DNA of 44,055 nt from Granulosicoccaceae bacterium (GTDB lineage Bacteria; Pseudomonadota; Gammaproteobacteria; Granulosicoccales; Granulosicoccaceae). The notes below the pieces were generated by a model. The model saw only the letters and a program-made list of their open reading frames with translations, did no database searches and was not told the origin of the DNA. The stretch covers positions 1 to 44,055 of the forward strand of contig JAHDCO010000030.1 of the NCBI GenBank assembly GCA_020629835.1, written 5' to 3'. Positions 6,101 through 38,579 of this stretch are shown in pieces (positions within the stretch are counted from its first letter, which is position 1; each line of letters opens with the position of its first letter). Made by a program: the position numbers and the translations under genes.

Positions 6101-7069
6101 CGCACCGTACTGTTTAGCGACACCATTAGCGCGTTACGCACCGCCTGGTGGCAAACCAGTTACCAAATGCAAAAGCGACGCGATAACCCCGCGTGCGCAG
6201 AAGCTGAACTACAGTGCATCAGTCGGGAGGACGACCCGGGTATTACTCCGGTGGTTACGTTTGATCCGCAACAGTCGGTGTTGGACACGCCAGGCATTTT
6301 AAGCCACAAGCCGAAAGTTGCCATACTGCGTGAACAAGGCGTAAACAGCCACGTTGAAATGGCAGCGTGTTTTTCTGCCGCTGGCTTTGAACCACTGGAT
6401 GTGCATGTAAACGATTTGGTGCACGGCAACGTGTCATTTGACGACGTGAAAGGCTTGGTGGCCTGTGGCGGTTTTTCATACGGCGATGTCTTAGGTGCCG
6501 GTGGCGGTTGGGCAAAACGCGTTTTATACACACCAAAATTAAAAGATGTGTTCGCTGAATTTTTCCATCGGAGCGACACATTCAGTTTAGGCGTCTGCAA
6601 TGGCTGCCAGATGATGTCGCAGTTAAAGTCATTGGTGCCTGGTGCTGAGCATTGGCCGAGCTTTGAACGCAATGCATCCGAACAGTACGAGGCGCGTTTA
6701 TCTACGGTAGAAATTTACGAATCGCCGTCGGTGTTATTGACCGATATGGCAGGCTCACGATTGCCTGTTGCGGTTGCGCACGGGGAAGGGCGCGTTCAAT
6801 TGAACGCACCAGATCAGTTGCAGAAACTGCAAGTGGCTGTTGGATTCGTGGATAACCATGGGCATATGACAGAGCAATACCCGTTAAATCCTAACGGCTC
6901 GCCTCATGGGATTACTGGCGTGTGTTCAAATGATGGCCGCGCTACGATACTGATGCCTCATCCGGAACGCGTCGCACGCAGCGTTACACACTCGTGGAAG
7001 CCCCCTCAATGGGGAGAGCGTGGGCCCTGGTCTCGCTTATTCGACAACGCTCGTGTGTACGTGTCGTGA
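3188..7069 (+). CDS. purL: Phosphoribosylformylglycinamidine synthase (single-chain PurL)
   Basis: Catalyses the fourth step of purine synthesis, FGAR + glutamine + ATP to FGAM, in the cytosol. The order is typical of the long form: N-terminal domain, two AIRS-like ATP domains (THNHPTAISPFPGAATGAGGE, FNNEFGRP, HDVGAGG, later HDRSDGG), and a C-terminal class I glutaminase with the nucleophile C1137 in LGVCNGCQMM and a terminal MPHPERV. I start at the ATG 3188 because MLCLSGSSALSSFRV aligns with the E. coli start and gives 1293 residues (E. coli about 1295). The frame also offers ATG 3158 and TTG 3131, neither with a strong ribosome site. It is divergent from ssrA and overlaps the next gene by four bases (GTGA). 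No PurR-type operator was recognised upstream. Confidence 0.97.
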   Translation: MLCLSGSSALSSFRVDGLLERLRVVDDSITRVSMTHVYLADIADSGNWSDRDQAVLMDLVGASAVVDVSTDDAMASLYVVPRLGTVSPWSSKATDICHAAGLAGLARVELGRCVRLWREASMVQASDVSDALSAELHDRMVESTLSTLTSAEALFEHGEPQPLSTVPVIAEGASALEAADARLGLALSPDEVSYLVSSFEQLERDPTDAELMMFAQANSEHCRHKIFNAQWTLDGVEQPLSLFGMIRNTAKVTNTGLLSAYHDNAAVIEGYTASRWLPDASGGYTTFKEPTHIQIKVETHNHPTAISPFPGAATGAGGEIRDEGATGNGSKPKAGLCGFTVSNLEIPGWEQPWERTIGKPDRIASALDIMIDGPIGAAAFNNEFGRPNLAGYFRTYCEQFDDQARGYHKPIMIAGGLGNIRPGNIDKKPIVEGAVLVVLGGPSMQIGLGGGAASSVASGNLDAELDFASVQRGNPEMQRRCQEVLDRCIALGDDSPILSMHDVGAGGISNALPELINDAGMGGLIELRAVLNDEPSMTPLALWCNESQERYVLAVNAEKLDEFEALCARENCLYALVGEATREQHIVVNDKHFNNKPVDLPLNVLLGKPPKLAITANHQTPATKAFSSSNVSLDDCVQRVLQLPSVACKNFLITIGDRTVTGLVVRDQMVGPWQMPVADAAVTAADYVGFTGEAMAMGERSPVAVIDAAASAKLAIGEAITNLACVHVGSISNIKLSANWMASAGNRPDDADLFDAVHAVGMELAPALGLAIPVGKDSLSMRTQWSDGEQERIVTAPISVVISAFAPVEDVRRVVTPELRQDCGATELLLIDLGLGKNRLGGSALTQVHNATGTVAPTVDDAELLKGFHNALQALHEHGLLLAYHDRSDGGLFVTLAEMAFAGNVGLTIQIQSLSQDAVAALFNEELGAVLQIRQSQYAEVMAVLEQAGLGDALHTIGTLNTEKQLLIQSGRTVLFSDTISALRTAWWQTSYQMQKRRDNPACAEAELQCISREDDPGITPVVTFDPQQSVLDTPGILSHKPKVAILREQGVNSHVEMAACFSAAGFEPLDVHVNDLVHGNVSFDDVKGLVACGGFSYGDVLGAGGGWAKRVLYTPKLKDVFAEFFHRSDTFSLGVCNGCQMMSQLKSLVPGAEHWPSFERNASEQYEARLSTVEIYESPSVLLTDMAGSRLPVAVAHGEGRVQLNAPDQLQKLQVAVGFVDNHGHMTEQYPLNPNGSPHGITGVCSNDGRATILMPHPERVARSVTHSWKPPQWGERGPWSRLFDNARVYVS

Positions 7070-7974
7070 GTACATCGATATCCACGGCCGATGCCATTGC
7101 CCGTTACATCGCGGTTCGGCATCGATTGCCGCAGGCGCCACAGCCTGCGAAAACAACCTACGTTAATAACTTATCCGACTTGGTTGATGAGTTCGATTTG
7201 TTTGTACTAGACGGTTTCGGTGTGCTGAACGTCGGTGCGGATCCCGTGCCTGGTGCCACCGAGCGGGTCAACAGTTTGCGAGATGCAGGCAAACAGATGG
7301 TGGTACTAACCAACGGCGCAACAGCACCGACTTCGGTTACCGTTGAAAAGTACTTGAAGTGGGGTATGCACTTTGAACCCATGGCGGTGGTATCAAGCCG
7401 GGATGCTCTGCTTCAGGCGTTGCAGGATGATAAGTACGTGAAAAAACGCTGGGGTGTAGCAGCGACATCGTTTGCAGCTGTGGATACCATGCCAGGCCTT
7501 TGCCATCTACTGGAAGATGACGACGCAGCTTATGAGGCTTGCGATGGCTTCATTTTATTAAGTGCCCTGGATTGGACCGAGCAGCGCCAAAAACGATTAG
7601 TACAGGCTCTGCAGAAAAGCCCACGGCCGGTGCTGGTTGGTAACCCGGATCTGGTAGCCCCACGCCCGGAAGGGTTATCGTTAGAACCGGGTTGGTACGC
7701 ACATCGGTTGGCTGATGAACTGGGTATTGAGCCTGTGTTCTACGGCAAGCCGTTTAAGAATGCCTTTGATGTGGTAACACAGCGTTTTCCAGATTATGAA
7801 CCGCACCGGATAGCGATGGTCGGCGACTCGCCACATACGGATATTCTTGGCGGTGCGGGTGCAGGTTGGCGTACGGTGCTGATTCACGACCATGGATTGT
7901 GTAAAGGCCACGATGTAGAAACAGTTTTTTCAAACGCCGGAATTCGCGCGGATTTTGTCGCCAATACCACCTGA
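7066..7974 (+). CDS. HAD superfamily IIA (NagD-like) phosphatase-like protein
   Basis: A cytosolic HAD-fold protein of 302 residues. The nucleophile motif reads FVLDGFGVLN with D49, followed by the capped-subfamily pieces VVLTNGA (motif II), FYGKPFKNAF (motif III lysine) and MVGDSPHTDILGG (motif IV). The usual second aspartate of motif I (DxD), the general acid/base in most HAD phosphatases, is F51 here. This occurs in some HAD-IIA subgroups, so activity is likely but the substrate is unknown. The GTG start at 7066 overlaps the purL stop as GTGA, so translation is probably coupled. An open frame continues upstream to 6994, but only inside purL. The 3' end overlaps the convergent kinase gene by 45 bases. 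A role in sugar-phosphate or nucleotide housekeeping is only a guess from purL linkage. Confidence 0.85.
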   Translation: MSTSISTADAIARYIAVRHRLPQAPQPAKTTYVNNLSDLVDEFDLFVLDGFGVLNVGADPVPGATERVNSLRDAGKQMVVLTNGATAPTSVTVEKYLKWGMHFEPMAVVSSRDALLQALQDDKYVKKRWGVAATSFAAVDTMPGLCHLLEDDDAAYEACDGFILLSALDWTEQRQKRLVQALQKSPRPVLVGNPDLVAPRPEGLSLEPGWYAHRLADELGIEPVFYGKPFKNAFDVVTQRFPDYEPHRIAMVGDSPHTDILGGAGAGWRTVLIHDHGLCKGHDVETVFSNAGIRADFVANTT

Positions 7975-9780
7975 ATGCGGTGCTGCGTTCAGCATTTGAA
8001 GAATCTTGCTGTTCAATAAATCGGTGTCCACGGGCTTGTGCAGCACATCAAAACCTGATGAGGTGAGTTCACTTACGCGTGCCGGTGAGGTATCACCGGT
8101 AACAATCAGTGCGGGTACTTGTATTTCCACCGCATCGCATAAGTCTTCGATGGCCTGTGTGCCCGTCATATGATCTCGAAGTCGATAATCCGCAATAATT
8201 AAATCAGGTGCCAGCTGAGAGTCTGCGAGTTGTTCAAGCGCATCGTCGGTGGTCTCCGCACAAATTGGATGAAAATTTAACTGTTTAAGCACAATGTGCA
8301 TCGCTTCGCGGATACTACTGTCATCGTCAATAACCACAATTACCGTTTCTTCGTCTGTGGCTGAAAATGGCGTTGTACTGACTAAGGTGTGCGGTGCCTG
8401 ACGGGGAAGCTTTTTACCCATGGGAACCACCAAACTGAACGTGGTTCCTTTACCGGGAGTTGACTTCATTTGTAAGTTCACGCCCAATAAATCGCTCAAG
8501 CGCTTCACAATAGATAAACCTAATCCCAAGCCCTTCGAACGGTCGCGTTCCGGGTTGCTGAGCTGGTAGTACTCTGAAAAAATAGCCGCATGTTCTGCTT
8601 CTGGAATACCTCGGCCGTTATCGGCGATGCGGATTCTATAGCCACCTTTAACTTGACTGTATTCGATGGAAACCAAGTTGCCTTCGCTGTGGGAAATAGC
8701 GTTTTCCAGCAGATTGCGGATAATACTCTCTAGTAATAAGGAATCCGTTTTCGCGTAGGCTTCGCCTCCTGTCAGTTGCACTTCTACGCCTTGCAGCGCA
8801 GCGGTGGGTTGAATTTGTGAGCGGATGTTCGTTAGCAATCGGGCCAAATCAAATTGTTCTTCTTCCACTTGAACCACGCCCGCGTCAAGGCGAGATAAAT
8901 CCAGCAAACTGTTGAATAAGCGGTTCAGTACTTCCTTACATTCAATTGCTTCATTGAGCGCGCGCTCCCCATCGGGTCTAACCGACGTTTTTAAGGTATT
9001 AAGAAATAACCCCAGTGCATGCAGGGGCTGACGCAAATCGTGGTTTGCTGCGGCAATGAAACTATCCTTGGCTTTTTGCTCTCGCTTACCACTGCGTAGC
9101 TCATCGACTGTTTGTGCCAACTCGAGTTTGGCTTTTTCCGCTGCATCGAACAGGGCTTTCGTGCGGGAATTTGATCGCACAATTAACCAAACACCTAAGC
9201 CGCCCGTCAATAACAGTAGCGCGGTGAATAAACGAATGTATCCGGATAGATTCTCAATCTGCAGCATGGCATCGTCGGTTCGAAGCAGTGCTTGCATGTA
9301 ATACCCGTGACCCAGCTGACGTACACCAGATGAGACTTTGCGTGTACTTGCTACCAACTGATTAACATCATCAAGCGTTAATTCATGGTTTGGGTCCATC
9401 AAAGATTCAGTTTCTTCGATGAACTTATCCGATATCTGAGCAAACTTATCGAGTAAAGGTTTATCGGTATTTTCAACAGGGAACTGAAAATTAAAAATTG
9501 ACAAGGCGCTCCACAGTACGTCGTAACGTTTTTGAGCGTATTGAATTCGTTCCTCGGAAGCCATGCCGGTTTGTATTTTTTCTAGTTGCAAAGCACGTAG
9601 CGATGCAATGAACTCATCAATATTTGAATCCGACTGCAGCAGATAGTTGAGCGCAGCTGGTCCTTCTTTTTCTTCAATCGTATCTTGGGTGTATGAAATA
9701 TGCGATTGCACTGTCCACATCATCATTGCGCTCAGTGCCGCGCAGATGAGTAATATGAATCCGAGTATGCGCTCTACCAA
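7930..9780 (-). CDS. Hybrid sensor histidine kinase with C-terminal receiver domain
   Basis: An inner-membrane signalling protein of 616 residues. Helix 1 spans about 5-24. A periplasmic or extracytoplasmic region of about 155 residues follows, then helix 2 at about 184-201 and a short coiled linker. The HisKA site is in NHDLRQPLHALG with H247. The ATPase domain shows LLENAISHSE, DNGRGIP and GLGLGLSIVKRL. A receiver domain (about 480-605) has acidic pocket VIDDDSS and phospho-acceptor D531 in IIADYR, with the lysine in VLHKPVD. No DNA-binding or cyclase output is attached, so another regulator must act downstream. The start is TTG with AGGCG ten bases before. It lies 16 bases after the exported sulfite-oxidase-fold gene, suggesting that protein is its periplasmic partner. 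Confidence 0.92.
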   Translation of the reverse strand: MVERILGFILLICAALSAMMMWTVQSHISYTQDTIEEKEGPAALNYLLQSDSNIDEFIASLRALQLEKIQTGMASEERIQYAQKRYDVLWSALSIFNFQFPVENTDKPLLDKFAQISDKFIEETESLMDPNHELTLDDVNQLVASTRKVSSGVRQLGHGYYMQALLRTDDAMLQIENLSGYIRLFTALLLLTGGLGVWLIVRSNSRTKALFDAAEKAKLELAQTVDELRSGKREQKAKDSFIAAANHDLRQPLHALGLFLNTLKTSVRPDGERALNEAIECKEVLNRLFNSLLDLSRLDAGVVQVEEEQFDLARLLTNIRSQIQPTAALQGVEVQLTGGEAYAKTDSLLLESIIRNLLENAISHSEGNLVSIEYSQVKGGYRIRIADNGRGIPEAEHAAIFSEYYQLSNPERDRSKGLGLGLSIVKRLSDLLGVNLQMKSTPGKGTTFSLVVPMGKKLPRQAPHTLVSTTPFSATDEETVIVVIDDDSSIREAMHIVLKQLNFHPICAETTDDALEQLADSQLAPDLIIADYRLRDHMTGTQAIEDLCDAVEIQVPALIVTGDTSPARVSELTSSGFDVLHKPVDTDLLNSKILQMLNAAPHSGGIGDKIRANSGV

Positions 9781-9796
9781 GGTATTCGCCTACGCA

Positions 9797-10342
9797 TCAT
9801 TGAACAATGAGATGAGTTAACTGCCAAACACTGGAGGCGTTGTTTTTCTTGGTTAAAAGTTCTGGGTACTCGTCCCAAGGGAAAATTATCCATAACGGTC
9901 CCAGCTCACGAATGCTCATAGGCTTGCCGTTTTTCTGGAAGGCCACAATGATTGGGTAGGTCTGGCTATTCAGCTTCTCAAGATCAAACCAGTAGTTGTC
10001 TTCGGCTTCCGCTCGAATCACCACTTCATCGGCAACAACACCAGTTTTCGCAAGTAGTTCGTTAAACCGAACCCCGGTGAATTCATCCGGGCCGTTCGGT
10101 GTCCAAGGTGTTTTGGTTGTAACGGTGGTTAGGGGCATGGATTCGAGCATTGCGCGGTCGAACTCGGCAACCGGCTCGCCGTTACGTTCGGCATTGCCAT
10201 GAACAATGCTGCCGCTGATGATCAATAACACTTCACCTTCAGCTGGCTCAAGCGCGAGTGCGTTTGTCACTGCCAGTAGCGCGGACAAACCAACAATAAC
10301 GAGTCGTTTCGCTATTTTTTCAACCATCTTCTTCGTATCCAT
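9797..10342 (-). CDS. Exported sulfite-oxidase-fold (molybdopterin-binding-like) protein lacking cysteine
   Basis: 181 residues with an N-terminal signal peptide: a basic start, a hydrophobic stretch at about 14-28 and likely cleavage near ALA-LEP. The rest matches the small Oxidored_molyb (PF00174-like) domain: LIISGSIV, a TPWTPNGPDEFTGV segment corresponding to the substrate-entry region, FNELLAKTGV, a DNYWFDLEKL segment, then GKPMSIRELGPLWIIFPWDE. Full enzymes of this fold bind molybdenum through one cysteine. This protein has no cysteine at all, so it probably is not a normal molybdoenzyme. It is first in a two-gene minus-strand unit with the hybrid kinase, which suggests a periplasmic sensing role. 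An AT-rich TATATA lies upstream at 10400-10405, but I see no matching -35 box. Confidence 0.82.
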   Translation of the reverse strand: MDTKKMVEKIAKRLVIVGLSALLAVTNALALEPAEGEVLLIISGSIVHGNAERNGEPVAEFDRAMLESMPLTTVTTKTPWTPNGPDEFTGVRFNELLAKTGVVADEVVIRAEAEDNYWFDLEKLNSQTYPIIVAFQKNGKPMSIRELGPLWIIFPWDEYPELLTKKNNASSVWQLTHLIVQ

Positions 10343-10465: not shown

Positions 10466-12514
10466 TCAGGCAATATTCAAGCGATCAACAATAGCGTCGA
10501 TGTCCAATGACTGTTGGGTAGCGGTTTCGCTGGCTTGTTGCAACCAGTTGAGTGTGTCTACAATCGCTTGAATCTCGGTGTTGCGTTCTTTCAAGTGCAA
10601 ACGGATACGCCTTTCGGCATCGGCCACGGCGGCCTCGGTTAGGCCGTCCGCGCGGGGCGTACCTGGAAAACACGCCAAAACATCGGCGGCGGTTTTCGTC
10701 GTGTACGCGGCCAGGTCCAATTCTGGTGCGCGCCAACTTTCCAAATCATTGGCCAATAAGGTGGCTCGGGTAACCAGTTTGTCTACGACCGTATGACGTT
10801 GAGCGGTTCCTAGTACTCTTAGCAACTTGCGCATAGCATCAGCGGCGCTTTGTAGTTGATCAAAATCATCCATGTACAGCCCCTGGCTACTCTGCCAATT
10901 TGCCAGCAGTCTGGATGCAACGGTCTCAGATTCCACATGGTCGGATAGCTCAATGGCGTAGTCCACCATGCTCTCCAGTTCAGCCCATTGTGTTTTCATA
11001 CCCCGGTACCCGGGGCCGAGCGCTAAGCGGTACTCGGTGTTATTGATGAACAACTCGCGAAACCGCAGAACCTTGGCCAGCTGGCTGAGCAGGCGCCGGT
11101 GTTCGATGGTTAGATTTGCCGGTTTGTCCACGCTGAATTCCATGAACTGCCGGCGCGCGTTGAAGTAATCGGCATCCACCACATCCGGTTCGCTCCAGTT
11201 GTTGCCTCCAAGTTCTTCTATGAGATTCAACAGCTGCTTTTTTGATGGAATGCGCTCTAAGTGAAAATGTGCCTGTAGATCCTGTAGCTCTTGTTCAATT
11301 AACCGCGCCTGATGATGTGCGCGTCGCAGCAGAGTTCGGGTAGATCGGTACGCCAAATGAGGGTGGATGTAACTCTTGAAATCCTTTGGCTGACGGTCAA
11401 CCAACTCCACCATGGAAGACAAACGCACCAATTGCAGCGCTGTTAACGATCGGTCGTTATCCAGTTTGTTGAGTATGGGGTTTTTAAGCGTGTCTCGAAC
11501 GCAGTCACTCCAGGCGTGCAGGCGTGTTGGCAGATCATCGAGGTGTTGGAATTCCACTTGTTCAAGTCCAACATCGGCCAATCGCTTTGCAAGTTCGTGT
11601 ATCTGTGAGATGGGGGCTGACGTATCGTTGGCAGCATCTTCCAGAAAGCGATGTGAATTCGTCTGGTCCGGTTGACCCATCAATTGCATGATAGTGGTCA
11701 GTTCGTCCAGGTTTAAATCCTGGGCAATCGCCATAGCCAGTGGGGCATCAAAATGATCGGGGAGCTCTGGTAACCAGGGTTGCCCATCGGCTAGTTCGGT
11801 TAAATGTTTTGGAGGGCAGGCGGTACCTACTGCGATATCTAGTTGCAATGAAATGCCGCTAACGCCCCGAATGCTTTCTGCGACATTGCCAAACCAATTG
11901 GATAATGGCTCACCAACGTTGTAGTCGGGCAGCCGAATTTGCCATTCGTTTAAGGCAGTGTCGATGAGCTCCAAATTGACATCGGGAGTGCAACCGTCCA
12001 TGCGTAATTCGTAACGGCGTTCCGCACACGCTTGCTCATCGGTTCTGCGCGCGAGTATGGCGGGGAATAAAAGCAGTGGCGCACGAGCCATGTGCGGGCT
12101 GTTGGGTTTTTGCCATTGCAGGAAACCAGCGGCTAAATATAAGCGCTGAATCCCGGGTTGTTTCACCAGCGCGTTCATAACCTGAATTTGTTTGCATCGC
12201 TCGTACAGTTCTTCAAGCGAGTGACGCGTCAGTAAGTTGGCCTTTGTGCGCTGCTTGCTCGGCGGCTTAGTGCGCTTTAAGGGCGCTACGGTGTCAGTTT
12301 CTTTAACATCCGGTAAGCCTATGGCGTCAGGCACCAAGTCCAATCGGCCATCGGGTTGAGTCAGGATGTCCGAAATAGCCAGTGGAGAATGCGGGTGAAC
12401 ATCGATGTCGCCCCGGCGTGTGGCCCACTCAAGTGTTCGGTGCCAATTCTCGTGGGCGTCGCGGCGGCGGCGAGACACAGCATTTTCATTCGGTGGTGGG
12501 GTTACAACATTCAC
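10466..12514 (-). CDS. Stand-alone DUF4011-type protein without helicase motor
   Basis: 682 residues, predicted cytosolic, no signal or membrane helix. Residues about 97-240 read like the DUF4011 domain: EELYERCKQIQ, LYLAAGFLQWQ, ARAPLLLFPAIL, then an LPDYNV segment. From memory this domain starts very large superfamily I helicase proteins. The C-terminal half is helical and includes LGPGYRGMKTQWAELESM, resembling a segment found between helicase motifs in those proteins. No Walker A (GxxxxGKT/S), no Walker B and no nuclease motif is present. It may therefore be a scaffold or a reduced descendant of the helicase. The start is GTG, with no strong ribosome site. It stands alone on the minus strand, divergent from msrP and about 120 bases upstream of the kinase pair. 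Role unknown; defence is possible because related large proteins occur in defence loci. Confidence 0.7.
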   Translation of the reverse strand: MNVVTPPPNENAVSRRRRDAHENWHRTLEWATRRGDIDVHPHSPLAISDILTQPDGRLDLVPDAIGLPDVKETDTVAPLKRTKPPSKQRTKANLLTRHSLEELYERCKQIQVMNALVKQPGIQRLYLAAGFLQWQKPNSPHMARAPLLLFPAILARRTDEQACAERRYELRMDGCTPDVNLELIDTALNEWQIRLPDYNVGEPLSNWFGNVAESIRGVSGISLQLDIAVGTACPPKHLTELADGQPWLPELPDHFDAPLAMAIAQDLNLDELTTIMQLMGQPDQTNSHRFLEDAANDTSAPISQIHELAKRLADVGLEQVEFQHLDDLPTRLHAWSDCVRDTLKNPILNKLDNDRSLTALQLVRLSSMVELVDRQPKDFKSYIHPHLAYRSTRTLLRRAHHQARLIEQELQDLQAHFHLERIPSKKQLLNLIEELGGNNWSEPDVVDADYFNARRQFMEFSVDKPANLTIEHRRLLSQLAKVLRFRELFINNTEYRLALGPGYRGMKTQWAELESMVDYAIELSDHVESETVASRLLANWQSSQGLYMDDFDQLQSAADAMRKLLRVLGTAQRHTVVDKLVTRATLLANDLESWRAPELDLAAYTTKTAADVLACFPGTPRADGLTEAAVADAERRIRLHLKERNTEIQAIVDTLNWLQQASETATQQSLDIDAIVDRLNIA

Positions 12515-12723
12515 AGGTTTCTAAAGGCCTATGTGGATTCATCAATCGGTGGTCACCGGGTAATTCAGGAATCGCGCCAAGGCCTAGTTCAATAAGCAAC
12601 TTGTGACGTACATAGAGTGGGTACGGCCTGAAATTGGCAGGCGTTACGGAATTATCTATCCGTTTGTGGGTCTACACTCGGGTAAGCAAAGTGAATGCAA
12701 CGAACACGAAGGTGGTGGTAAGA

Positions 12724-13689
12724 ATGCGAGATTGGATGAAATTGGCGGGAATCCGCTCCAGTGAGATAACCGATGAAACGGTGTTCAAACAACGACGCCA
12801 ACTCATTCAAGCCGCAGCGGTTGCTGGAATGACGGGGGCCATTAGCGCTGAAGCATCGGCCACCACCCCTAAACTTTCCATGCCAATCAAATCCACCGAT
12901 TACACCGTCGATGGCGAGTTAACCTCAGAAGAAACGGCGACTACTTACAACAACTTTTATGAGTTAGGTACGGACAAGGGAGACCCAGTCAAAAACGCGG
13001 GCTTTCTAAAGACTGAACCGTGGAGTGTCGTGATTGATGGGGAGTGTGATGCGCCAGGAACGTACACACTGGAAGACATTTTAAAACCCCATGACATTGA
13101 AGAGCGCGTGTACCGTTTGAGATGCGTGGAGGCTTGGTCGATGGTCATTCCATGGAACGGTTTCGCTTTGGGGGATTTGTTGAAGCGCTTTAAACCGAAC
13201 AGTAAGGCCAAGTACGTAGCGTTCGAAACGGTGAGTGATCAAAACCTTCCGGGTATGCGCAGCCGTGTGTTGGATTGGCCTTATCGAGAAGGACTTCGTA
13301 TTGATGAAGCGATGCATCCACTATCTTTCATGGCCATCGGTATGTATGGCAATGTCATTCCCAACCAGAACGGAGCACCGCTGCGGTTAGTGGTGCCATG
13401 GAAGTATGGTTTTAAAAGCATCAAGTCGATTGTGCGAATCAGCTTTGTGGAAGATACACCGCCAACCAGTTGGAACATGTCTGCCCCGCATGAATATGGG
13501 TTCTACAGTAACGTTAACCCAGAAGTCTCACACCCTCGTTGGAGCCAAGCCAAAGAGCGACAGCTGACCGGCTCAACTAGCGGTTTGGCTGCGCTGTTCG
13601 CCTCTAAAACGGAAACCGCTTATTTGAACGGCTATGCCGACGAAGTAGCCAGCTTGTACGCTGATATGGATTTAAAGAAGTACTTCTAA
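12724..13689 (+). CDS. msrP: MsrP, periplasmic methionine-sulfoxide reductase catalytic subunit
   Basis: A molybdopterin enzyme that repairs oxidised methionines in periplasmic proteins with electrons from quinol via MsrQ. The 321 residues follow E. coli YedY/MsrP closely: NNFYELGTDKGDP, then RLRCVEAWSMVIPWNG with the Mo ligand C134, AMHPLSFMAIGMYG, PQNGAP-like NQNGAPLRLVVPWKYGFK, and EYGFYSNVNPEVSHPRWSQA. The N-terminus has a twin-arginine signal (KQRRQLIQAA) for folded export. I start at ATG 12724 because AAGGTGG lies about eight bases upstream; an in-frame TTG at 12634 would add 30 residues unlike any family member. msrQ follows two bases after the stop. Divergent from the DUF4011 gene across about 210 bases. 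Confidence 0.97.
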   Translation: MRDWMKLAGIRSSEITDETVFKQRRQLIQAAAVAGMTGAISAEASATTPKLSMPIKSTDYTVDGELTSEETATTYNNFYELGTDKGDPVKNAGFLKTEPWSVVIDGECDAPGTYTLEDILKPHDIEERVYRLRCVEAWSMVIPWNGFALGDLLKRFKPNSKAKYVAFETVSDQNLPGMRSRVLDWPYREGLRIDEAMHPLSFMAIGMYGNVIPNQNGAPLRLVVPWKYGFKSIKSIVRISFVEDTPPTSWNMSAPHEYGFYSNVNPEVSHPRWSQAKERQLTGSTSGLAALFASKTETAYLNGYADEVASLYADMDLKKYF

Positions 13690-13691
13690 CG

Positions 13692-14357
13692 ATGGAGACC
13701 GCTGCAACAGCCACAACAGCCGTGCCAAAATCCAAACGCCGCAAAGCTTCCCGGTGGACGTGGGTGTCCTGGTTGAAGGTTGTGGTGTTTATCCTGGGGC
13801 TGGTGCCTGCTGCGGCGATTGTTGGGTCGGTTGTCACCGGTAAGGCAGGGCCTAACCCGATCGAATTTATCACGCATTCAACCGGTGAGATGGCGCTGCG
13901 TTTGATGTTACTTGGCTTGTTACTGTCACCCATGCGTTGGTGGTTCAAGTCAACGGTGCCTATTCGTTTTCGACGTATGGTGGGGCTCTTTGCGTTTTTC
14001 TATGTGATGTTGCATTTTCTCACTTACGCGGTACTTGATCAGCAACTGGACATCGACGCATTGCTTGATGATGTGCTGAAACGCGAATACATCATCGCAG
14101 GCTTTGTGAGTTTGCTGATCCTTATTCCATTGGCCGTGACGTCAACCCAGTCTATGATGAAGCGCCTGGGTAAGCGTTGGGTGTCTCTGCATCGCTGGGT
14201 GTATGTGGCGGCAATTGCTGCCGTTCTGCATTACATTTGGTTGGCCAAAGGCGATCAACTGGAGCCGTTGATTTACGCTGCGGTATTGGCCTTACTACTG
14301 GGCTTGCGAATTTGGCGACATTTTTCGCGCAAAACGAAACGTGTAAAGCCTGCATAA
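13692..14357 (+). CDS. msrQ: MsrQ, heme-binding membrane subunit of MsrPQ
   Basis: The inner-membrane b-type cytochrome that passes quinol electrons to MsrP. It has 221 residues with about six helices. Family landmarks are the GPNPIEFITHSTGEMALRL segment, PMRWW, RRMVGLFAFFYVMLHF, and the RLGKRWVSLHRWVYVAA segment ending in LHYIWLAK. The histidines in these helices are the expected heme ligands. The N-terminus carries an extra basic, Ala/Thr-rich cytoplasmic stretch of about 22 residues. It starts two bases after the msrP stop, so the two are co-expressed. It ends at a hairpin shared with convergent mdh. Confidence 0.95.
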   Translation: METAATATTAVPKSKRRKASRWTWVSWLKVVVFILGLVPAAAIVGSVVTGKAGPNPIEFITHSTGEMALRLMLLGLLLSPMRWWFKSTVPIRFRRMVGLFAFFYVMLHFLTYAVLDQQLDIDALLDDVLKREYIIAGFVSLLILIPLAVTSTQSMMKRLGKRWVSLHRWVYVAAIAAVLHYIWLAKGDQLEPLIYAAVLALLLGLRIWRHFSRKTKRVKPA

Positions 14358-36882: not shown

Positions 36883-37836
36883 ATGACATTTGCGGTGGTA
36901 TTCCCAGGCCAAGGCTCGCAGAAGGTGGGCATGCTCAGTGAGCTTGCAGCTGAACACCCGGGCGTGGCTGAGGTATTTGCTGAAGCCAGCAACCTATTCG
37001 AACAAGACCTTTGGACATTGGCGCAAAACGGACCGGCAGAAGCTTTGGCGGATACGCGCGTGACACAGCCTTTGATGTTTACCAGTGGTGTTGCGGTGTG
37101 GCGCTGTTTGCAGGGCAGCGGGCTCGGTGAACCTGTGGCGGTGGCAGGTCACAGCCTAGGTGAATTTGTGGCTCTGGTTGCTGCTGGTGTTTTGTCGTTC
37201 GCTGACGGCTGTGCGCTCGTTAAACAACGAGCTATGTTCATGGCTGACGCCGTACCAGAGGGTGAAGGGGGTATGGCGGCGTTGTTAGGTATGGACGACG
37301 AAGACGTAGTAGCTCTGTGTGAAGAGCTCAACGGTGAGCGTGTGGTGCAAGCTGCTAACTTTAATTCACCCGGGCAAGTCGTGATTTCAGGCCACCTCGA
37401 TGCGCTGCAGCGTGCCGTGGAAGCGGCTAAAACGCGCGGTGCTCGCAAAGCGATGATGGTGCCGGTTAGCGTGCCGAATCACAGCGCATTAATGCAGGAT
37501 GCGGGCGCTAAGCTGGCCGAGTTGATGGATGGATTAACCTTCAACGAACCCCAGTTTCCCGTTGTGCAAAACGCGCAGGCTACAGCGCCTGCAGATCAAG
37601 CGGCGTTGTTATCCAGCTTGAAAAAACACGTTTTCAGTCCGGTACGGTGGACGCAATCGGTGCAGGCGCTGAAAAACGATTACGGTGTTTCGGCACTGGT
37701 TGAAGCGGGCCCAGGAAAAGTGCTGACTGGCCTGTCTAAACGCATCGATAAGAGCCTGCCGTGTTTACCGGTTGATAGCGCAGAGTCGTTAAGTGCTGCC
37801 GTAAACGCCATACAATCACCTGGAGCGGGTGCATGA
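36883..37836 (+). CDS. fabD: Malonyl-CoA:ACP transacylase
   Basis: Loads malonyl groups on ACP for fatty-acid synthesis. 317 residues. FPGQGSQ at the start, nucleophile S91 in GHSLGEF, KQRAMFM, a core arginine in QRAM, the FNSPGQVVISG segment and catalytic histidine in VPNHSALM. ATG start, 40 bases after dapB. plsX and fabH, usually upstream in this cluster, are absent. It overlaps fabG by four bases (ATGA). Confidence 0.97.
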   Translation: MTFAVVFPGQGSQKVGMLSELAAEHPGVAEVFAEASNLFEQDLWTLAQNGPAEALADTRVTQPLMFTSGVAVWRCLQGSGLGEPVAVAGHSLGEFVALVAAGVLSFADGCALVKQRAMFMADAVPEGEGGMAALLGMDDEDVVALCEELNGERVVQAANFNSPGQVVISGHLDALQRAVEAAKTRGARKAMMVPVSVPNHSALMQDAGAKLAELMDGLTFNEPQFPVVQNAQATAPADQAALLSSLKKHVFSPVRWTQSVQALKNDYGVSALVEAGPGKVLTGLSKRIDKSLPCLPVDSAESLSAAVNAIQSPGAGA

Positions 37837-38579
37837 GCGAAAATACAAACCCTATTGTGTTGGTCACTGGCGCAAGCCGAGGTATCGGTGCGGCCATCTC
37901 AGATAAGTTCGTGGCATCGGGTGCAACGGTGATTGGTACGGCGACCAGTCAGGCGGGTGCCGATAAAATCTCAGAACGTTTCGCCGCGGCTGGCGGTACG
38001 GGCGCAGGTTGGGTGTTAAACGTAACCGAAGCCGATGCTTGCGAGGCGACATTGAAAGCCATCGCTCAAGAATATGGCGCCTTGTCGGTGCTAATTAATA
38101 ACGCCGGCATCACGCGGGACACGCTAACGATGCGCATGAAAGAGGGCGACTGGGACGCCGTGATAGACACCAACCTTACCAGTGTCTGGCGTTTGTCCAA
38201 GCTTGCTATAAAACCGATGATGAAACAGCGCTTCGGGCGCATCATTAATATTTCATCGGTTGTTGGTCACACCGGCAACGCAGGTCAAGTAAACTACGCC
38301 GCAGCAAAAGCCGGGTTGTCAGGCATGACGAAGTCCATGGCATTGGAGCTAGGCTCGCGTGGTATTACGGTGAACGCGATTGCGCCCGGGTTTATTCAAT
38401 CCGATATGACTGATGAGCTTTCCGATGAGCAAAAAAGTGCGCTCATGGGTTCGATCGCTCTGGGTCGTTTCGGTAGCCCCGACGACGTCGCTGCAGCGGC
38501 TGAATTTCTAGCCTCTGACAGCGCGGGATACATTACAGGCCACACCTTGCATGTCAACGGTGGCATGTATATGGGCTAA
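37833..38579 (+). CDS. fabG: 3-oxoacyl-ACP reductase FabG
   Basis: NADPH-dependent reduction of 3-oxoacyl-ACP. 248 residues. A short-chain dehydrogenase: TGASRGIG nucleotide site, NNAG, Ser in SSVVGH, catalytic Y155 and K159 in NYAAAKAG, and the C-terminal GHTLHVNGGMYM that is typical of FabG. Starts within the fabD stop (ATGA). About 200 bases separate it from acpP, and I see no other gene there. Confidence 0.97.
   Translation: MSENTNPIVLVTGASRGIGAAISDKFVASGATVIGTATSQAGADKISERFAAAGGTGAGWVLNVTEADACEATLKAIAQEYGALSVLINNAGITRDTLTMRMKEGDWDAVIDTNLTSVWRLSKLAIKPMMKQRFGRIINISSVVGHTGNAGQVNYAAAKAGLSGMTKSMALELGSRGITVNAIAPGFIQSDMTDELSDEQKSALMGSIALGRFGSPDDVAAAAEFLASDSAGYITGHTLHVNGGMYMG

Follow-up and report, generated by a model that had tools for sequence, protein, structure and literature searches.

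What does a small exported protein with the sulfite-oxidase (SUOX) fold report when its gene lies directly beside that of a membrane-bound hybrid histidine kinase? The question is raised by a locus in a 44,055-nucleotide stretch of a Granulosicoccaceae genome (GenBank assembly GCA_020629835.1, contig JAHDCO010000030.1), hereafter the window. An earlier note on this DNA had suggested a two-part periplasmic sensor, perhaps for a molybdenum cofactor, sulfite or oxidised methionine, and had linked it to the nearby msrPQ genes by analogy with HprSR control. We instead arrived, with high confidence, at a reading of the gene pair as a PruR-DTB pterin-sensing system; by analogy with characterized PruR proteins, a small pterin, and not one of those three candidates, is the most likely signal. 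Feature coordinates are collected in Table 1.

The main source on such systems is a 2026 review, "Emerging roles of pterins as signaling molecules in bacteria" (PMC13259868), whose survey spans more than 5500 unique sequences; in the literature collection searched by full text, no other paper was listed as dealing with PruR signalling. According to this review, pruR genes form two-gene operons either with the gene for DcpA, which carries c-di-GMP domains, or with one for a sensor kinase that has a DcpA-like periplasmic domain. The latter arrangement is termed PruR-DTB (DcpA-TorS-BaeS), its cores being TorS/BaeS-like with an optional receiver. The part of DcpA that PruR targets is its periplasmic domain, and Ruegeria pomeroyi DSS-3 (WP_011045932.1) provides an example of PruR-DTB (PMC13259868). 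Since this source describes PruR-DTB, the arrangement of pruR with a kinase is already known.

Table 1. Coordinates of the pruR-kinase locus and adjacent genes in the window
Feature	Position	Strand	Basis and remarks
pruR-like gene	9797..10342	-	181 aa, ATG start; predicted exported SUOX-fold pterin-binding protein
Sec-type signal peptide, residues ~1-30	10253..10342	-	By inspection of the translation
W80 codon, invariant Trp of T-x-T-P-W	10103..10105	-	52/52 PruRs
Y117 codon, equivalent to A. tumefaciens PruR Tyr104, pterin contact	9992..9994	-	7kos alignment
W173 codon, equivalent to A. tumefaciens PruR Trp160, pterin contact	9824..9826	-	7kos alignment
DTB-type hybrid sensor kinase	7930..9780	-	616 aa, TTG start; 16 bases downstream of pruR, co-directional
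Predicted helical periplasmic region of kinase, residues ~24-180	9241..9711	-	AlphaFold; boundaries by eye from hydrophobic stretches
N45-x3-Q49-x3-N53, at the place of DcpA/DTB WX7E	9622..9648	-	Multiple alignment
HisKA; presumed phospho-acceptor H247 in NHDLRQPL	8878..9069	-	Pfam
HATPase_c	8419..8745	-	Pfam
Receiver domain; presumed phospho-acceptor D531	8002..8340	-	Pfam
DUF4011 protein	10466-12514	-	682 aa; upstream of pruR, also beside pruR in L034 and L035
msrPQ	12634-14357	+	2.3 kb from pruR; NCBIfam

The small exported protein is a PruR

The small protein contains no cysteine among its 181 residues, and by inspection its N-terminus is of the export type, with a basic n-region, a hydrophobic core and ALA before the presumed cleavage site; residues 3-25 form a helix in the AlphaFold model (mean pLDDT 93.1, pTM 0.83). 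Against the Pfam profile PF00174 it scored below threshold (21.7 bits versus a cut-off of 24). A phmmer search of all PDB sequences returned four distinct sequences at E <= 1, every one a PruR, and these represent the solved PruR structures: 7kos/7kou (8.8e-21), 7kom (1.7e-18), 7rkb (4e-18) and 7kp2 (5.4e-17). We then used a profile built from 46 of the order's 52 PruR ORFs (alignment A1, leaving out the over-long L038, L041, L076 and L077 and the truncated L080 and L083). It matched 7kos at 1.6e-53, 7rkb at 5.3e-50, 7kom at 5.8e-36 and 7kp2 at 2.5e-35, with the next hit and first enzyme, sulfite oxidase 6y0k, at only 0.0059.

Structural comparison gave the same picture. PruR crystal structures occupied ranks 1-7 of the Foldseek search with the AlphaFold model, the 7kos chains matching at E-values of 9.1e-15 to 4.7e-14 with TM-scores of 0.90-0.94 on the target; the best enzyme, sulfite dehydrogenase 2ca4, reached 8.9e-7 at an rmsd of 7.9 A, and the bacterial oxidoreductase 1xdy reached 2.9e-4. 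With 34% identity to crystallised PruR, and with a length and fold in keeping with the SUOX-type proteins of about 170 aa that define this family, the protein is a PruR, a periplasmic pterin-binding protein, and lies far nearer to PruR than to the molybdenum enzymes.

The pocket residues point the same way. In Agrobacterium tumefaciens PruR, the pocket includes Tyr104 and Trp160 (PMC13259868), and the window protein shares both the fold of the PruR from its PruR-DcpA system (7kos, 7kou) and these two residues, as Y117 and W173; in the 46-sequence profile alignment, both positions map when 7kos chain numbers are shifted by the same 19 residues relative to full-length numbering. Across the order, the Y117 column holds Tyr in 49/51 PruRs and Phe in the other two, and the W173 column holds Trp in 49/51. 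At the column equated by eye, from two motifs, with the molybdenum-ligand cysteine of the enzymes (T76 in the window protein), none of the 52 PruRs has Cys (44 T, 6 I, 1 S, 1 V). By the same visual equivalence, the window MsrP reads C-V-E-A-W where PruR reads T-x-T-P-W; hhalign of the PruR family profile against this MsrP yielded no usable alignment. The standard molybdenum ligand is therefore missing from the protein, as the earlier note had stated, though complete absence of cysteine is not a rule of the family: beyond residue 20, Cys is lacking in 24/52 ORFs of the order, the window's included, and present in 28/52, counts in which several ORFs probably start too early. These observations agree with the description of PruR as lacking the Mo-ligating Cys and having a truncated site that likely cannot accommodate the molybdenum cofactor, small pterins being bound instead, with tetrahydromonapterin preferred over dihydromonapterin (PMC13259868).

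The partner is a hybrid sensor kinase

The regulator downstream of pruR, separated from it by positions 9781-9796, carries HisKA, HATPase_c and Response_reg domains by Pfam. AlphaFold models residues 1-240 as all-helical (mean pLDDT 92.1; helices 2-38, 41-71, 76-99, 107-124 and 136-229), about 160 aa of which make up the helical periplasmic domain. A fold search of the PDB with this periplasmic model found no match at E <= 0.001; XylFII-LytSN appeared at rank 31 (E 0.23). In systems of the TorT-TorS and XylFII-LytS type, a kinase whose sensor domain is helical likewise takes its signal from a periplasmic binding protein, the fold of which is probably unrelated to that of PruR.

In alignment A2 of the 49 partners, the H247 column is nearly invariant and the D531 column invariant, the latter being meaningless for the seven GGDEF-EAL proteins that A2 includes. 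The kinase core matched the TorS model TIGR02956 (1.8e-42; 145.5 bits, below its cut-off of 676.5) and the NahK-type model NF041832 (3e-81, below cut-off), and with its Pfam domains it has the TorS/BaeS-like core of PruR-DTB. No PAS domain is detected by Pfam in the window kinase, in contrast to the Ruegeria example (PMC13259868). Within the order, the partner kinase at L084:2712-4961 carries a PAS domain, unlike the other partners. A separate subgroup of kinases (L060, L064, L067, L072 and L075) has a common insertion, GYWLDE, after FDxxWS of the periplasmic domain. The end of the window kinase ORF overlaps by 45 bases (7930-7974) with a convergent HAD-phosphatase ORF (6994-7974, +).

PruR is consistently paired with a membrane regulator

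A single-sequence search at E <= 0.001 across 48 genomes of the order recovered PruR in 35, comprising 52 genes including that of the window and up to four copies per genome. Partners could be sought at 49 of the 52 loci, the window among them, as L044, L061 and L080 lie at contig ends without a downstream gene. At all 49, a large membrane regulator follows pruR on the same strand, with gaps that, counted from the first start codon, range from -100 to +45 bases, and by this gene order the window pair, too, has the two-gene layout expected of a putative PruR-DTB system. By Pfam, 42/49 partners combine HisKA, HATPase_c and Response_reg, and 7/49 combine GGDEF and EAL; eight of the 49, among them those only weakly similar to the window kinase, were scanned one by one (kinases L069, L070, L073, L074 and L084; GGDEF-EAL proteins L081, L082 and L083). 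The order thus holds both output types, and at least four genomes encode both. Kinase and GGDEF-EAL partners occur together in genomes with three or four PruR genes: G020 (L037, L063, L074, L078), G043 (L054, L073, L079), G044 (L065, L070, L076) and G045 (L059, L069, L077).

The earlier note had asked whether linkage to hybrid kinases recurs among homologs. It does, in 42/49 cases, with membrane signalling proteins in 49/49, and this linkage supports its proposal of a two-part periplasmic sensor in which a SUOX-fold protein devoid of cysteine is teamed with a membrane hybrid kinase; the exported protein of that fold and the hybrid kinase 16 bases away were likewise borne out by the model, the translation and the Pfam domains. 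Among the 42 kinase pairs, PruR distances correlate with periplasmic-domain distances (r = 0.81; maximum of 1000 permutations 0.20). The correlation with kinase-core distances is nearly equal (r = 0.76), so that this co-divergence indicates joint inheritance, not contact.

PruR is sparse outside the order. In an even sample of the class, a profile search at E <= 1e-10 found it in 12/369 genomes, three of which are the window's own genome and two of its genus. A class-wide single-sequence search, which is a weak search, gave 3/185 genomes including the window's own, and a single-protein search of genome contigs gave one locus, L103. Among the class-level matches, L124 appears by eye to be an ordinary SUOX-type protein, L116 is on a short contig where no partner could be read, and the matches at L121-L123 are weaker.

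Candidate sources of the pterin

GTP cyclohydrolase I is present in the genome (249 bits versus a cut-off of 27), and dihydropterins can therefore be made. No FolM-type dihydromonapterin reductase reached cut-off in any of the 48 genomes of the order (45 candidates were scored in the larger genomes). In the window's own genome, the best score for the FolM-type model NF005066 was 89.6 bits versus a cut-off of 249 and that for the pteridine reductase model NF006598 was 154.3 versus 288, both at the level of general short-chain dehydrogenases; the NF006598 test is weak in that no control genome reaches its cut-off. Pteridine reductases carry the motif TGX3RXG, which was seen in none of the dehydrogenases at 17 loci found with E. 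coli FolM. One product of the FolM search, the window ORF at 37833-38579, was rejected as a pteridine reductase: it is a FabG 3-oxoacyl-ACP reductase (NCBIfam 369.9 bits versus a cut-off of 332). As the genome is 97.13% complete, absence of PruA/FolM is likely, not proven. A precedent exists in Vibrio cholerae, which has PruR-DcpA pairs yet no PruA (PMC13259868).

The WX7E site differs in the kinase partners of this order

A WX7E motif is conserved in the vast majority of PruR partners, making it typical, not universal, and the DcpA-type periplasmic domain that serves as reference spans about 190 aa (PMC13259868). The strict motif is absent from the window kinase, which reads N45-x7-N53 at its place. 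N45 is at least 90% conserved among the 36 kinase partners of alignment A3 (36/49, leaving out the seven GGDEF-EAL proteins and the divergent kinases L055, L069, L070, L073, L074 and L084) and is found in 34/45 in the alignment of all 49 partners, in which 33/49 retain Q49 and 25/49 retain N53. With moderate confidence, we regard N45-N53 as the site probably equivalent to WX7E, an equation based on a multiple alignment of helices, which can slip. Within the first 230 residues, the W-x7-E string occurs among the 42 kinase partners in L084 only, at residue 118 and hence at another place. The GGDEF-EAL partners L076-L079 carry it at residue 48 and L081 at residue 28, while none was found in L082 or L083. 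As nearly all PruR-kinase pairs of the order lack WX7E, the change represents a lineage variant and not the decay of one gene. The motif is variable beyond the order as well, given that, partly by eye, only three of seven readable outside partners have W-x7-E (L103 WHITQLQLE, L117 WAGYQFDRE, L118 WQAYQLERE), with W-x7-D in L125, W-x7-Q in L120 and neither in L119 and L121. Because WX7E is typical and not universal, its absence lowers the case for a canonical DTB, not that for a PruR-kinase pair.

These differences bear on a variant of the PruR-DTB reading that we consider possible, if rather doubtful, namely that docking of PruR on this kinase has departed from the standard mode and that the system uses a different interface or a different ligand. 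Besides N-x7-N and the failure to find PruA/FolM in the genome, it draws on the replacement of A. tumefaciens PruR Asn102 by Asp115, the residue also found in PruR groups C and D, a change potentially involved in pterin specificity (PMC13259868). However, Asp is the commonest state at this position in the order (39 D versus 12 N, n = 51), WX7E varies among the seven partners read by eye outside the order, and the available sections of the review do not establish a role for WX7E.

msrPQ and the surrounding genes

The msrPQ genes of the window are genuine: MsrP scored 449.1 bits against NF003767 (cut-off 207) and MsrQ 185.3 against NF003831 (cut-off 130), so the earlier note was right to place a true enzyme pair of this type near the locus. 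Their proximity to pruR invites the reading that the pair senses molybdenum cofactor, sulfite or methionine sulfoxide and controls msrPQ, which the SUOX fold and the retention of msrPQ in L034 and L035 would favor, but which we judge very unlikely. The closest structures to the small protein are crystallised pterin-binding PruRs, and the truncated PruR site likely cannot hold the molybdenum cofactor (PMC13259868). Moreover, of the 51 other loci only two, L034 and L035, have an msrP or msrQ match close to pruR (about 5 kb searched on each side where the contig allowed); these are the best two PruR matches and come from the closest relatives. The block purL-HAD-kinase-pruR-DUF4011-msrPQ-mdh is common to these two and the window, and its retention in the two closest relatives fits vertical inheritance. 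MsrP itself occurs in 41/48 genomes of the order, 40 over cut-off, and, counted by hand from two tables, in 30/35 genomes with PruR versus 11/13 without, one of the 11 being a fragment below cut-off. We therefore found no sign of a functional tie between msrPQ and PruR, the link being local and the co-occurrence neutral, and the suggested HprSR-like control draws no support from these data. On the combined grounds of the PruR site, the two of 51 loci and the neutral co-occurrence, both the proposed signals and the control of msrPQ were rejected in favor of the PruR-DTB reading. That the small gene is a decayed SUOX enzyme beside the kinase by chance, as its sub-threshold PF00174 score might suggest, we consider negligible and rejected on the 49/49 linkage, in addition to the conserved pocket and the 34% identity to crystallised PruR.

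Among the scanned neighbors (HAD phosphatase, DUF4011 protein, MsrP and MsrQ), none is a response regulator. A scan for promoters and terminators gave nothing above chance (one promoter-like site versus 3.0 expected; two terminator-like sites versus 2.9).

Proposed mechanism and relation to known systems

The window pair resembles PruR-DTB in its gene order, with pruR followed by the kinase; in its PruR, which is exported, SUOX-like, about 170-180 aa long and devoid of the Mo-ligand Cys; and in its kinase, where the periplasmic domain is helical and is joined to HisKA, HATPase and a C-terminal receiver. Relative to A. tumefaciens, where the partner is a GGDEF-EAL protein and a PruA reductase is present, the window has a hybrid kinase and no recognised PruA. 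For ligand, docking and output, we infer from the A. tumefaciens system that PruR, either pterin-loaded or empty, would bind the neighboring kinase directly, docking on its helical periplasmic domain. Docking would presumably alter the kinase/phosphatase balance, and phosphate would pass from His247 to Asp531 and on to a phosphotransfer protein or response regulator encoded elsewhere.

More speculatively, and in our estimate improbably, the kinase partners of the order may form a distinct PruR-DTB branch, in which WX7E has become N-x3-Q-x3-N with Asn best kept at the place of the Trp, and whose ligand, as no PruA/FolM was recognised, may be a dihydropterin or a pterin that neighbors produce; it may feed a NahK-like phosphorelay in place of c-di-GMP. 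In genomes with both output types, one pterin could drive two outputs per cell. The new content of our analysis is small and consists of the altered motif, the many pruR copies in the order, and the coexistence there of kinase and c-di-GMP outputs. The PruR pair is common in this additional order (35/48 genomes), mostly kinase-linked and altered in its signature motif, which makes the order a useful place to ask what pterin is sensed without PruA. It also corrects a tempting misreading, as small "molybdopterin oxidoreductase" annotations beside kinases can be pterin sensors and not molybdoenzymes.

MsrP/YedY and sulfite oxidase enzymes share the core fold of the window PruR, which differs from them in being much shorter and lacking the Cys ligand; its signal is Sec-like by inspection, in contrast to the twin-arginine type of MsrP/YedY. 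The third PF00174 protein of the genome (G000:C51:6910-7395, L001; 175.3 bits, in a 440-aa frame) is probably a true sulfite-oxidase-type enzyme.
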